A stretch of DNA of 64,000 bases from Psychroserpens luteolus (GTDB taxonomy: Bacteria; Bacteroidota; Bacteroidia; Flavobacteriales; Flavobacteriaceae), in contig NZ_JAHVXI010000001.1 of NCBI RefSeq assembly GCF_021032705.1, forward strand, positions 1,054,001 to 1,118,000. The letters run 5' to 3'. The position numbers and the translations under genes were made by a program. Every line of letters starts with the position of its first letter. The stretch's first letter is position 1. This document shows positions 9,995 through 12,962 of the stretch, piece after piece. The notes under the pieces are model-generated. The model saw nothing but the letters and a program-made list of their open reading frames with translations, was not told the origin of the DNA and did not search any database.

Positions 9995-11014
9995 ATGATA
10001 GATAAGATAAAAGAACTCATCGCTGAAGCCGAAGCATTTACAACCCAATCTAAAGAAGAGGTTGAAAGCTTCCGTATCAAGTATTTAGGGTCTAAAGGGC
10101 TCCTAAAGCAGTATTTTGCCGAGTTTAAAAATGTAGCAAATGAGCAGAAAAAAGAGTTTGGTCAAACCATTAATCAACTCAAAAAGACTGCTGAAGAAAA
10201 GGTTAATGCTCTAAAAGAGGAATTGGAGAGCAAGGAGGAAACAGCTGGTGTTTATGGTGATTTGTCTCGTCCAGGTGAACCTATAGAGATTGGTGCACGT
10301 CATCCAATTTCAATAGTAAAAAACCAGATTATCGATATCTTTTCTCGCATAGGTTTTAATGTAAGTGAAGGTCCAGAAATTGAAGATGATTGGCATAACT
10401 TTACCGCATTAAACTTACCAGAGTATCACCCAGCTCGTGATATGCAGGACACCTTTTTTGTGCAAACCAATCCAGATGTATTACTACGTACACACACCAG
10501 TTCGGTGCAAGTACGTTATATGGAGAATAACAAGCCACCTATTCGTACCATTTCTCCTGGTCGTGTATTTCGTAACGAAGCCATTTCGGCACGTTCACAC
10601 TGCTTTTTCCATCAGGTAGAAGGTTTATACATTGATAAAGATGTGAGCTTTGCCGATCTCAAACAAACACTTCAATATTTCACTACAGAAATGTTCGGGA
10701 AGTCAAAAATTCGTTTACGTCCATCGTATTTCCCTTTTACTGAGCCTAGTGCTGAGGTCGATGTGTATTGGGGATTAGAAACCGAAACCGATTATAAAAT
10801 GACCAAAGGAACCGGTTGGTTAGAAATTATGGGTTGCGGTATGGTAGATCCTAATGTATTGGAAAACTGTGGTATTGATTCTAAAGAATACTCAGGTTTT
10901 GCTTTTGGTATGGGAATCGATCGTATTGCTTTACTGCTTCATCAAATTAGCGATATTCGATTATTAAGTGAAAATGATGTGCGTTTCTTAGAGCAATTTA
11001 AGAGTGCCTTATAA
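9995..11014 (+). CDS. pheS: phenylalanyl-tRNA synthetase alpha subunit
   Basis: The 339-residue protein charges tRNA-Phe with phenylalanine as part of the alpha2beta2 complex. An N-terminal coiled-coil tRNA-binding region spans about residues 1-90. The class II core follows, with motif 2 near 189-210 (RVFRNEAISARSHCFFHQ) and motif 3 near 301-313 (GFAFGMGIDRIALL). Length is normal. The beta subunit gene pheT is not in the window, a common arrangement in Bacteroidota. A small gene follows after 3 bases. Confidence 0.96.
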   Translation: MIDKIKELIAEAEAFTTQSKEEVESFRIKYLGSKGLLKQYFAEFKNVANEQKKEFGQTINQLKKTAEEKVNALKEELESKEETAGVYGDLSRPGEPIEIGARHPISIVKNQIIDIFSRIGFNVSEGPEIEDDWHNFTALNLPEYHPARDMQDTFFVQTNPDVLLRTHTSSVQVRYMENNKPPIRTISPGRVFRNEAISARSHCFFHQVEGLYIDKDVSFADLKQTLQYFTTEMFGKSKIRLRPSYFPFTEPSAEVDVYWGLETETDYKMTKGTGWLEIMGCGMVDPNVLENCGIDSKEYSGFAFGMGIDRIALLLHQISDIRLLSENDVRFLEQFKSAL

Positions 11015-11017
11015 GTT

Positions 11018-11413
11018 GTGAAAAAAGATATCCAAATCCCAGAGGTTAAAGACGTATTTGTTGCTGTTGTTCAAGAACAACATCCTGAGTACAAAACTGA
11101 TGATTGGAACGCCTATATCATCAACAATAAAGATGTCGATCTCGATACCGTTTTAATCGTATCTAAAGGCTATTCCGAAGATAAGATGACACCGGTAATG
11201 CGTCATACTATAAAGCTACTTCCTGCCAGAAGCTATGCCAAAATAGAATTTATGCAAAATGATGTGTTACAGTTAAACAATGAGTTTAAAGTGACATTTT
11301 TTGAAGGTAATGCGATGTTAGACAAAACCTATGTGTTTAGAAAGAATACGATTAATGTTAAGGCTTTACAAACCATTCCGTTAATGCAATTAAAAGGAGT
11401 TTTGGTTAAGTAA
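11018..11413 (+). CDS. conserved hypothetical protein in pheS operon
   Basis: The 131-residue protein begins at a GTG, 3 bases after the pheS stop; no ATG gives a better start. It has no signal peptide or membrane helix and looks like a small alpha/beta domain with hydrophobic strands (DTVLIVSKGY, RSYAKIEFM). I do not recognise a characterised family. The tight coupling to pheS suggests co-translation, which is not evidence of a role in tRNA charging. Confidence 0.72.
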   Translation: MKKDIQIPEVKDVFVAVVQEQHPEYKTDDWNAYIINNKDVDLDTVLIVSKGYSEDKMTPVMRHTIKLLPARSYAKIEFMQNDVLQLNNEFKVTFFEGNAMLDKTYVFRKNTINVKALQTIPLMQLKGVLVK

Positions 11414-11458
11414 TGGTTTGTCATTGCGATAGAAACATTAGTTTTATTTTCTTGATTC

Positions 11459-11552
11459 TAAATTAACTAAGATCTCTCGACAAGCTCGAAATGACAAATG
11501 ATTGCTATTCACATATGATGTATTGTCATTCCGACCAAAGCGGAGGAATCTA
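11459..11552. repeat. 94-bp palindromic repeat, left copy
   Basis: This copy matches 11870-11963 at 92 of 94 positions in direct orientation. It is itself an imperfect palindrome: the half at 11470-11496 (ending CTCGAAATGACA) is the approximate reverse complement of the half at 11524-11551 (starting TGTCATTCCGACC), around a 27-base spacer. Only 4 bases separate its end from the stop codon of the GIY-YIG gene. A decayed half-site (TTGTCATTGCGA) lies nearby at 11418-11429. Confidence 0.9.
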
Positions 11553-11556
11553 TCAT

Positions 11557-11865
11557 TTAGATAGTATCATTTAAAAATAACCATTTCGGATTGTTTAATT
11601 TTATTAGAGCTTCTTTTTTGTTTCTATTCCACTTTTTTAATTGCTTCTCTCTTTTTATGGCATCTTCAACCTTGAAAAAATGCTCGAAGTAAATAAGATA
11701 TTTGCATTTATACCGATGTGTAAATGATTTAGAATTAGAGGAAGGAGTATTATGATAATGGAGTCTATTACGAAGATTATTGGTCATTCCAATATATAAA
11801 ACCGTTCGACGCTTATTAGTTAAAATGTAGATGTAATAATTATGATTAGCGATTAATTTCGTCAT
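11557..11865 (-). CDS. GIY-YIG domain endonuclease-like protein
   Basis: The 102-residue protein consists almost entirely of one GIY-YIG nuclease domain: YYIYIL near residues 10-15, LYIGMT near 23-28, an Arg in LRNRLHYH, and the catalytic-type Glu in IKREKQLKKW near residue 73. It resembles the small UPF0213/YhbQ-like group, which has no DNA-recognition domain of its own. The gene fills the interval between two near-identical 94-bp palindromic repeats, with 4 bases to spare on each side. This layout suggests a mobile or repeat-associated nuclease. No neighbouring gene explains it. Confidence 0.88.
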   Translation of the reverse strand: MTKLIANHNYYIYILTNKRRTVLYIGMTNNLRNRLHYHNTPSSNSKSFTHRYKCKYLIYFEHFFKVEDAIKREKQLKKWNRNKKEALIKLNNPKWLFLNDTI

Positions 11866-11869
11866 GAAT

Positions 11870-11963
11870 TAAATTAACTAAGATTTCTCGACAAGCTCGA
11901 AATGACAAATGATTTCTATTCACATATGATGTATTGTCATTCCGACCAAAGCGGAGGAATCTA
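11870..11963. repeat. 94-bp palindromic repeat, right copy
   Basis: This direct repeat of 11459-11552 differs at two positions. Its palindromic halves are 11881-11907 and 11935-11962. The last three bases (11961-11963) are the reverse complement of TAG and form the stop codon of gpsA, so this copy is fused to the 3' end of gpsA. It begins 4 bases upstream of the GIY-YIG start codon. Confidence 0.9.
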
Positions 11964-12962
11964 ATCCAACTTCTCCGTCAGTTTCTTAAAGACCTTCTTA
12001 GGGTTCTTGTTTTCATACAAAATATCGTAAACCGCATTTATGATTGGTAAGCGTGTTTTTTTTGTATTCTTCTTATTAAGCTCATGAGCACTTTTTGTAG
12101 CATAATAACCTTCGGCAACCATATTCATTTCCATTTGCGCAGATTTTACGGTATAGCCTTTTCCAATCATGTTACCAAACATACGATTACGAGAAAAGGT
12201 AGAATAGCCTGTTACTAATAAGTCACCTAGATATGCTGAGTTATTGATATTGCGTTTCATTTTATGCATTTTCTTGATAAAACGCTTCATTTCACGAATC
12301 GCATTACTCATCAATACACTCTGGAAATTATCACCATAACCTAATCCGTGAGCAATTCCAGCAGCAATAGCATAGATGTTTTTGAGCATAACGGCATATT
12401 CGGTACCAATAATGTCGTCACTAATTTTCGTCTTGATATAATTACTTGACAATGCGTCGGCAATGGCTTGAGCTTTATTAGCATCTGCACAAGAAATGGT
12501 AAGATATGACAATCGCTCTAACGCTACTTCTTCTGCATGGCAAGGTCCAGCGATAACAGCAATATTTTCAAATGGGATATGGTAAATATCATGAAAATGT
12601 TCTCCCACTAATAATCCAGACTCAGGCATGATTCCTTTTACAGCAGAGACCACAATCTTTTTTGAGATATCTACATTTAATTTTTCGAGTTCACCATGAA
12701 TAAATGCCGATGGAATCACGAAAATCAAGACATCTGCCCACTCGGCGATATCATTAATATCATTACTTATGTTGAGTTGTTCGGTTTTAAATTCTACAGA
12801 ACTGAGATAACTAGGGTTGTGTTGTTCTTTCAATAAATGCTCTTTAGTATATACACTTCGCATATACCAACCAATCTCATCGAGATTTTCAGAAAGCATC
12901 TTAACGATAGCAGTAGCCCAACTTCCTGCGCCAAATACAGCATATTTTAATGGTTGACTCAT
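11961..12962 (-). CDS. gpsA: NAD(P)H-dependent glycerol-3-phosphate dehydrogenase
   Basis: The 333-residue cytoplasmic enzyme reduces dihydroxyacetone phosphate to sn-glycerol 3-phosphate, the backbone of phospholipids. The N-terminal Rossmann motif is GAGSWATA (residues 11-18). The C-terminal catalytic domain contains the conserved Lys in MLKNIYAIAAGI and the SAYLGDLLVT segment. Length is normal. The stop codon is supplied by the terminal bases of a 94-bp repeat, so the last residues may have been altered by repeat insertion. The gene is divergent from a lipoprotein gene. Confidence 0.95.
   Translation of the reverse strand: MSQPLKYAVFGAGSWATAIVKMLSENLDEIGWYMRSVYTKEHLLKEQHNPSYLSSVEFKTEQLNISNDINDIAEWADVLIFVIPSAFIHGELEKLNVDISKKIVVSAVKGIMPESGLLVGEHFHDIYHIPFENIAVIAGPCHAEEVALERLSYLTISCADANKAQAIADALSSNYIKTKISDDIIGTEYAVMLKNIYAIAAGIAHGLGYGDNFQSVLMSNAIREMKRFIKKMHKMKRNINNSAYLGDLLVTGYSTFSRNRMFGNMIGKGYTVKSAQMEMNMVAEGYYATKSAHELNKKNTKKTRLPIINAVYDILYENKNPKKVFKKLTEKLD

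Follow-up and report, generated by a model that had tools for sequence, protein, structure and literature searches.

A GIY-YIG Nuclease Gene Framed by Outward-Tagged REP Hairpins as a Candidate Minimal Mobile Element of Bacteria

Organization of the Locus

The window, that is, the whole 64,000-nucleotide stretch of Psychroserpens luteolus DNA that was analyzed, carries a small GIY-YIG nuclease gene between a conserved open reading frame (ORF) and gpsA. The features of this locus are as follows, in window coordinates and with the strand given where one was assigned.

11018-11413, + strand: conserved ORF, the other flank of the site
11420-11429, + strand: decayed half-site GTCATTGCGA; the single-REP junction of the relative G006 falls here
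11459-11552: left 94-bp repeat, a composite of two REPs and a spacer
11459-11495, - strand: outer copy of the element's right end (in the left 94-mer), ending in a REP
11496-11524: left 29-nt spacer, abutting the GTCA tag; candidate target duplication or array linker
11525-11906: proposed element of 382 bp, REP (GTCA...), GIY-YIG gene, REP (...TGAC), tags outward
11525-11552, + strand: inner REP, GTCATTCC-hairpin-GGAATCTA, the element end beside the GIY-YIG stop codon
11557-11865, - strand: GIY-YIG nuclease gene, 102 amino acids (PF01541, E=9e-16)
11870-11963: right 94-bp repeat, with the same parts as the left copy
11870-11906, - strand: inner REP, a 37-nt segment with GTCATTTCGAGCTTGTCGAGAAATC on the - strand, the element end beside the GIY-YIG start codon
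11907-11935: right copy of the 29-nt spacer
11936-11963, + strand: outer copy of the element's left end (in the right 94-mer), ending in the gpsA stop codon
11961-12962, - strand: gpsA (glycerol-3-phosphate dehydrogenase), flank of the site

An earlier note on this DNA, made from its letters only, had described a 102-residue GIY-YIG gene between two direct 94-bp repeats. When re-measured, the repeats were identical at 92 of 94 positions, and the ORF lay 4 bases off each of them. The note had also assigned the gpsA stop codon to the right repeat, and the last codon of gpsA indeed occupies 11961-11963; likewise, the decayed half-site that it had pointed out was recovered within a stretch (11409-11429) whose complementarity to a segment of each 94-bp repeat is 81%. 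The flanking ORF at 11018-11413 gave no Pfam match, and a known RNA family at the locus was rejected, with no Rfam match in 11000-12400.

The boundaries of the unit had to be revised: the repeats are present, but the unit is not merely a gene between 94-bp direct repeats. Because each 94-mer consists of two REPs around a 29-nt spacer, and because the nearest REP on each side of the gene has its GTCA tag facing away, the unit is better described as a 382-bp element at 11525-11906 with outward hairpin tags, and this REP-gene-REP architecture recurs at other loci. The two spacers are identical at 28 of 29 positions, and both abut tags. The outer halves of the 94-mers are part of an array structure, as displayed by the related genome G010.

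The GIY-YIG Protein

The encoded protein was assigned to the GIY-YIG superfamily by its PF01541 match and by residues Y24, R34, E73, and N92, which, like G26 and H38, were invariant in 29 sequences (alignment numbering). Tyr, Arg, Glu, and Asn are the catalytic residues of the GIY-YIG domain. NCBIfam profiles were matched below their cut-offs only. The gene is under purifying selection, with a dN of 0.042-0.046 and a dS of 0.37 between the source genome (G000) and G010. An AlphaFold2 model of the 102-residue protein had a pLDDT of 90.3, and the nearest solved structures by sequence or fold were UPF0213 (1zg2, 1ywl; E=1.1e-3) and then the branched-DNA nuclease Slx1 (E of 0.01 and weaker), sequence identity to 1zg2 and Slx1 being about 21-28% when the structures were aligned. 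No solved structure reached E<=0.001 in the fold comparison, so the likeness of the model to Slx1 suggests, and does no more than suggest, that the protein cuts hairpins or cruciforms.

A Second Copy in the Host Genome

The earlier note had proposed that the genome be searched for the repeat together with GIY-YIG genes, and this search, in the 3.84-Mb source genome (56 contigs), revealed a second framed gene. It is located on another contig beside lpd (locus L006), and its protein is 51% identical to the window protein. The gene is framed by the inverted pair TTGTCATTCCTGCGAAGGCAGGAATCCA, with 96% complementarity, in a 404-bp element with inverted REP ends that is bounded by a 28-nt direct repeat (26/28 match). 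The strict unit TCATTCC-N6..16-GGAATC occurs six times in the whole genome, five of them at the two GIY-YIG genes, and the reversed-pattern control gave two matches; with the looser pattern GTCATTYC-N4..16-GRAATC, six of nine genome matches lay at these genes. The binomial value for this colocation (1.8e-17) is overstated, since the strict units are clustered.

Framing Repeats and Tagged Hairpins across Bacteria

Searched alone against 84,980 species genomes, the window protein gave at least 556 confirmed relatives; among the matches listed, the closest named relative of the gene was from an uncultured Psychroserpens, in the same stretch as that of G010. The best 80 of the at least 556 were chosen on their similarity to the window protein and on nothing else. 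A repeat scoring at least 16 was common to the 250-bp flanks on the left and right in 62 of their 75 testable loci (5 of the 80 were dropped for short flanks); at control positions within these loci, the count was 4 of 552. A framing repeat scoring at least 18 was found in 16 of 29 loci of whole-genome relatives versus none of 57 controls. In an enlarged set that includes both smaller sets (5 of 211 genes dropped for short flanks, 7 duplicates removed), 149 of 206 GIY-YIG genes were framed at a score of at least 18 versus 8 of 803 control positions, the controls of these tests being positions within the same loci, mostly inside genes, and the fraction of 149/206 being biased upward, since most of the members used to build profile A1 were known beforehand to be framed. 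The remaining 57 genes had no framing repeat at this score. Chance repeats at the window locus were rejected on the 92/94 identity, the clustering of five of six strict units, and this comparison. The outcome that the earlier note had named as adverse, repeats without any link to GIY-YIG genes, is thus not what was observed, here or across many phyla.

The tag was also found de novo: the tetramer GTCA stood at the stem base in 97 of 416 stem ends near the genes versus 39 of 2098 far off. Strict GTCA-hairpins with outward tags reached 2.76 and 3.11 per kb on the two sides within 100 bp of the gene, compared with 0.04-0.09 per kb more than 1.5 kb away, and 107 inverted pairs of GTCA-hairpins frame GIY-YIG genes in 56 loci; 113 of 211 genes had no strict GTCA-hairpin within 300 bp on either side. 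The stems vary widely across loci with their pairing kept, a pairing that selection imposed in the set of 207 distinct units beside GIY-YIG genes. In that set, where GTCA, pair 1, and complementarity were imposed (GTCA also being found without such selection), the base before GTCA was T in 146 and C in 39, pair 2 was T-A in 188, CCA was the commonest tail (64), and 151 hairpins were 20-21 nt long.

These genes occur beside such units in Bacteroidota, Pseudomonadota, Cyanobacteria, Spirochaetes, Planctomycetes, Elusimicrobia, and candidate phyla. Seven of the 31 plasmid records with a match were inspected, and six of the genes were framed (Neisseria, Azospirillum, Planktothrix, Sinorhizobium, Sphingobium, and Aeromonas), one Rhizobium gene being unframed. 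A phage home for the gene was rejected as far as one query shows, since one relative searched against 50,697 phage records gave no match at 1e-12.

Two further arrangements were observed. Several tandem GIY-YIG genes, with 28-nt spacers between tagged ends, lie at L209 (G121:C86:43500-47700). In Sinorhizobium (L282, L295), a palindromic repeat of roughly 115 bp, which may resemble RIME, recurs many times in the replicons concerned, and the GIY-YIG gene has one or three copies of it on its left; the pSymB site was filled in both compared records, and the number of these repeats differs.

Variation at the gpsA Site

Among 23 genus genomes with gpsA, the cassette is present at this site only in G000 and G010. 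The earlier note had suggested a search for empty sites with a single repeat: the gap measured 1-73 bp in 13 of the 21 genomes where the flanking ORF was found, and G006 showed a single REP, in a gap of 32 bp. The arrangement is not fixed among relatives, the second outcome that would have spoken against the note, since element-free sites exist and G010 carries two GIY-YIG genes and three repeats in tandem with a 411-bp spacing.

Between G000 and G010, third codon positions were identical at 88 of 103 sites in the GIY-YIG gene, compared with 199 of 334 in gpsA, 74 of 132 in the flanking ORF, and 230 of 340 in pheS (Fisher 5e-7, 1e-6, and 4e-4, respectively). This contrast implies, if rates are alike, that the cassette reached at least one of the two sites after the hosts split; judged by it, the cassette is younger than its flanks. 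The 94-bp copies within a genome matched at 92 of 94 positions in G000 and at 92, 94, and 92 in G010, and at 86-88 between the two genomes. Closer copies within than between genomes fit the recent duplication or gene conversion to which the earlier note had attributed their near identity. The dS of the GIY-YIG gene between G000 and G010 (0.37) is also below that of gpsA between G000 and G006 (0.565), which, together with the younger cassette, suggests that G006 may never have carried a cassette at gpsA; the same two observations make it less likely that G006 inherited the cassette from a common ancestor and then lost it.

A different hairpin repeat, CATCCTGAACTCGTTTCAGGATCTC, was observed at the same gpsA 3' end in G004 and G009 (L128, L131), so the site receives different repeat families.

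Variation at the lpd Site and Other Sites

Where G000 has the 404-bp element, its closest relative, G006, shows a terminator-like hairpin without any interruption. The lpd site was read in 13 genus members besides G000, G006 included, and in the distant relative G012 (eight further members lay outside this reading). None of the 13 had a cassette in the stretch read, and 10 of them, as we read the sequences, showed a recognizable uninterrupted hairpin of this type. In G012, a GIY-YIG gene lies at the lpd site beside an intact hairpin, with neither the left REP nor the duplication in the stretch read. The G000 and G012 genes agree at 65 of 98 third positions versus 260 of 440 for lpd (p=0.21). 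Since the gene is here as diverged as lpd, it may have been present anciently at this site and then lost in others, G006 included. However, the L006-like genes that G015 and G013 carry elsewhere are just as distant from it (63/98 and 60/98), so that both shared descent at the lpd site and repeated insertion would be possible; the two 28-nt copies around L006, moreover, still match at 26 of 28 positions, which speaks against an old presence.

The DNA match of L006 to G015 and G013 begins and ends at the REP ends. The elements of these two genomes (L174, L175) are flanked by 26-nt direct repeats, matching at 23/26 and 26/26, of their own host's sequence, which differs between the two and lies about 26 nt outside the right end; both elements are next to a gene start that seems to be the same in the two genomes. 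As a separate observation, the GIY-YIG genes of G015 and G013 agree at 93 of 98 third positions, far above expectation for these species, and the gpsA genes of this pair were not among the 30 closest.

Element-free counterparts were found elsewhere as well. An element lies between two genes in G004 and G005; at this place, G020 has none and G009 has unrelated sequence. Azospirillum lipoferum 4B has its sufB-sufC gap filled, and in A. oryzae, A. ramasamyi, and strain B510 this gap is unoccupied; eight more Azospirillum records covered 81% of the query in two pieces. At the Sphingobium fnrL site, the element is present in MM7A, TYG46, TYG73 (with a 1-nt gap within the gene), and MM15, a lone double-tagged palindrome in TYG64 and TYG74, and neither in TYG72 and TYG65. 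The repeat-associated mobile unit that the earlier note had put forward is thereby supported by the link in many phyla, the element-free sites, the tandem copy, and a cassette younger than its flanks.

At the element of G004 (L112, G004:C16), the left end runs into an inverted copy of host TTTGAACAATTC, as though it had been copied from a fold-back, and the right tag TGAC coincides with the ATGACA of the next gene.

Gene-less REP Pairs and Target Duplications

Apart from the window's own, eight pairs of REPs at most 60 bp from each other were found among the matches listed. In all eight the tags point outward and the pair measures 68-82 bp; the bases just outside tend to be T ahead of the tag and A behind it, and none of the eight showed a long flanking duplication. 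A 69-bp REP pair found in G002 is missing from the corresponding site of G020, G011, and G001, and another hairpin-like sequence occupies that site in G005, G012, and G019. At the orthologous sites of L306 (1045-1113), the REP-pair stems differ between the species G002 and G005 and a spacer stretch is similar, as if the stems had been swapped whole.

The units were more numerous where the gene was detected, with a mean of 15.5 in 13 genus genomes with a detected GIY-YIG gene (counting G002, whose single gene matches only weakly and in a long frame) versus 5.5 in 10 without (p=0.011, relatedness ignored); the reversed-pattern control showed no such difference. Two members without a detected GIY-YIG gene nevertheless have units, 13 in G008 and 9 in G001.

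Direct repeats scoring at least 8 bounded 14 of the 107 end pairs (8 loci) versus 0.00 expected, several of them in arrays. Direct repeats of 28-32 nt in the window, L209, L082, and L229 lie within arrays and may be array linkers. The idea that an element generally comes with a target duplication was rejected, since most end pairs have none and all eight REP pairs lack a long one.

Proposed Mechanism and Alternatives

These genes are strongly associated with tagged hairpins, and there are good signs that the units are mobile. We propose that these loci are probably minimal mobile elements whose sole gene encodes a GIY-YIG nuclease acting on its own hairpin ends, and that lone REPs and REP pairs are derivatives. 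The two ends would be CGTC/TGTC-tagged REP hairpins with the tags outward; the nuclease would recognize tag and hairpin, as a single-strand hairpin or a cruciform, and cut there. Copies would insert mostly between genes, reusing favored sites and sometimes duplicating 26-28 nt of the target. Loss of the gene would leave 68-82-bp, MITE-like REP pairs, loss of one end would leave lone REPs, and recombination between copies would produce the 411-bp tandem unit of this locus. That the nuclease cuts the REP, moves the element, and acts in trans on gene-less REPs is what we infer from these arrangements; movement may proceed by the element's own ends or by homing into favored sites.

A homing endonuclease gene is the alternative that we consider unlikely rather than remote. 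Its target would be a REP or fixed host site, and cutting followed by double-strand-break repair would copy the gene in and leave flanking repeats, the REPs spreading otherwise. GIY-YIG homing endonucleases, of group I introns or free-standing, belong to the same superfamily and occupy the same site in different species, and several observations are of this kind: the reuse of gpsA in G000 and G010, with a single REP in G006; the use of lpd in G000 and G012; and the seemingly shared gene start in G013 and G015. At a score of at least 20, direct framing was also commoner than inverted-only framing (89 versus 32 genes, with both in 19), and the GIY-YIG relatives match homing-endonuclease profiles weakly. 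However, the L006 element lies at a terminator-like hairpin and not in a REP, and the inverted REP ends that it has are its own; outward-facing tags on both sides are seen across loci; the source genome has almost no strict REP targets away from its two genes; no REP appears in the alignment of the unoccupied Azospirillum sites; and gene-less REP pairs with the same ends exist, which likewise sets the element apart from GIY-YIG homing endonucleases.

A host-domesticated, Slx1-like nuclease that processes hairpins or cruciforms, with REPs as its substrates or regulatory ends and the unit now immobile, appears improbable. The purifying selection and the fold resemblance to Slx1 would fit such a role, and there is a precedent in a GTAG-REP transposase that the abstract of PMC8266576 terms domesticated. 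Against it stand copy numbers of up to 10 per genome, the presence of matches in only 122 of 247 genomes of a phylum sample (E<=1e-15), and this patchiness together with tandem copies and unoccupied sites.

Still less credible is a passive neighborhood, in which REPs would mark tolerated intergenic sites, such as terminators, where a small gene lands without any functional link. The control tag ACTG, although rarer than GTCA, was also enriched near the genes (15 versus 3 units), so hairpins in general are commoner there, and REP pairs are intergenic elsewhere too; but in non-ORF sequence only, GTCA-hairpins were still 8.8-fold denser near the genes (2.92 versus 0.33 per kb), the outward tags are symmetrical, and neither the five of six strict units at two genes nor the framing of 149/206 versus 8/803 would be expected.

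That a RAYT-type (Y1, HUH) transposase moves the REPs, with the GIY-YIG gene as a passenger, is highly doubtful: the arrangement resembles REPtrons as outlined in parts of PMC3733652, and Y1_Tnp is matched in 5 of 23 genus members, but RAYT as the mover in the source genome was rejected, with no Y1_Tnp (PF01797, the RAYT domain) match there at E<=0.001, and passages of the same paper report that CGTC REPs do not flank transposase genes.

Relation to Known Repeats and Elements

Returning to the element that we propose, the repeats that it most resembles are the CGTC REPs, which passages of the survey by Di Nocera et al. 2013 (PMC3733652) describe as a superfamily with tag, stem, and tail in five phyla including Bacteroidetes, and which include Neisseria dRS3 and Rickettsia RPE-4/RPE-6. 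Their tag (CGTC/TGTC), stems starting A-T, T-A, frequent CCA tail, dimers, and mostly intergenic location are as found here. The 207-unit set shows the tag, the 8-9-bp stem with A-T pairs in positions 1-2, and the CCA tail of that class, with the qualification that the window's own REP units are imperfect and lack CCA at their end. The survey, in these passages, distinguishes two REP superfamilies and links an enzyme only to GTAG REPs; it states that CGTC REPs "apparently lack a dedicated transposase" or "seem lacking a dedicated transposase", and proposes a lost or borrowed one. By contrast, the units described here frame GIY-YIG genes. A literature search that left out most subscription journals and bioRxiv preprints returned no link between GIY-YIG and REPs, nor did the parts covered of PMC1564403 and PMC12306157.

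REPtrons and REPINs (GTAG REPs with RAYT/TnpA-REP) also consist of a single nuclease gene framed by tagged palindromes, and REP pairs as small non-autonomous units are common to both systems. The likeness to RAYT systems that the earlier note had drawn therefore holds for the arrangement and fails for homology: RAYT combines a Y1/HUH transposase with a GTAG tag, whereas the protein here matches PF01541, with no PF01797 match in the source genome, the tag is GTCA, and the genes can be multicopy and patchy. As in IS elements with MITE derivatives, inverted ends are common to GIY-YIG-bearing and short gene-less copies; unlike in IS elements, GIY-YIG is the sole gene with no known transposase, and the 26-28-nt duplications occur only in some copies. 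Target duplications of this length exceed the usual IS range.

The data point to a specific, tiny candidate partner for CGTC-type REPs. We tentatively extend the proposal, at what we judge to be just short of an even chance, to the claim that GIY-YIG nucleases of this clade are the mobilizing enzymes of the CGTC-REP superfamily across bacteria. If true, this would explain the spread of dRS3, the Rickettsia RPEs, and similar repeats, and would account for many intergenic palindromes. It would also define a class of DNA transposon with a roughly 100-residue GIY-YIG nuclease, acting on tagged hairpins, as its only enzyme, and hence a new enzyme class in bacterial DNA transposition, and a very small hairpin-targeted nuclease would be gained. 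Such categorical newness depends on the mechanism proposed; by arrangement, the elements are like REPtrons and IS/MITE pairs.

Two other GIY-YIG genes of the source genome lie beside tRNA genes. At L007 (G000:C11:107495-110701, positions 1400-1790), a different, 80-residue gene sits between tRNA-Arg(tcg) and a second copy of the 5' part of this tRNA with an inserted GC palindrome. At L008 (G000:C22:98976-102194, positions 1361-1840), a 90-residue ORF lies beside tRNA-Arg(tct), and on its other side is an 80-nt direct repeat (79%) of the region of the tRNA 3' end with a palindrome inserted; it is possibly a tRNA-targeted sister type.
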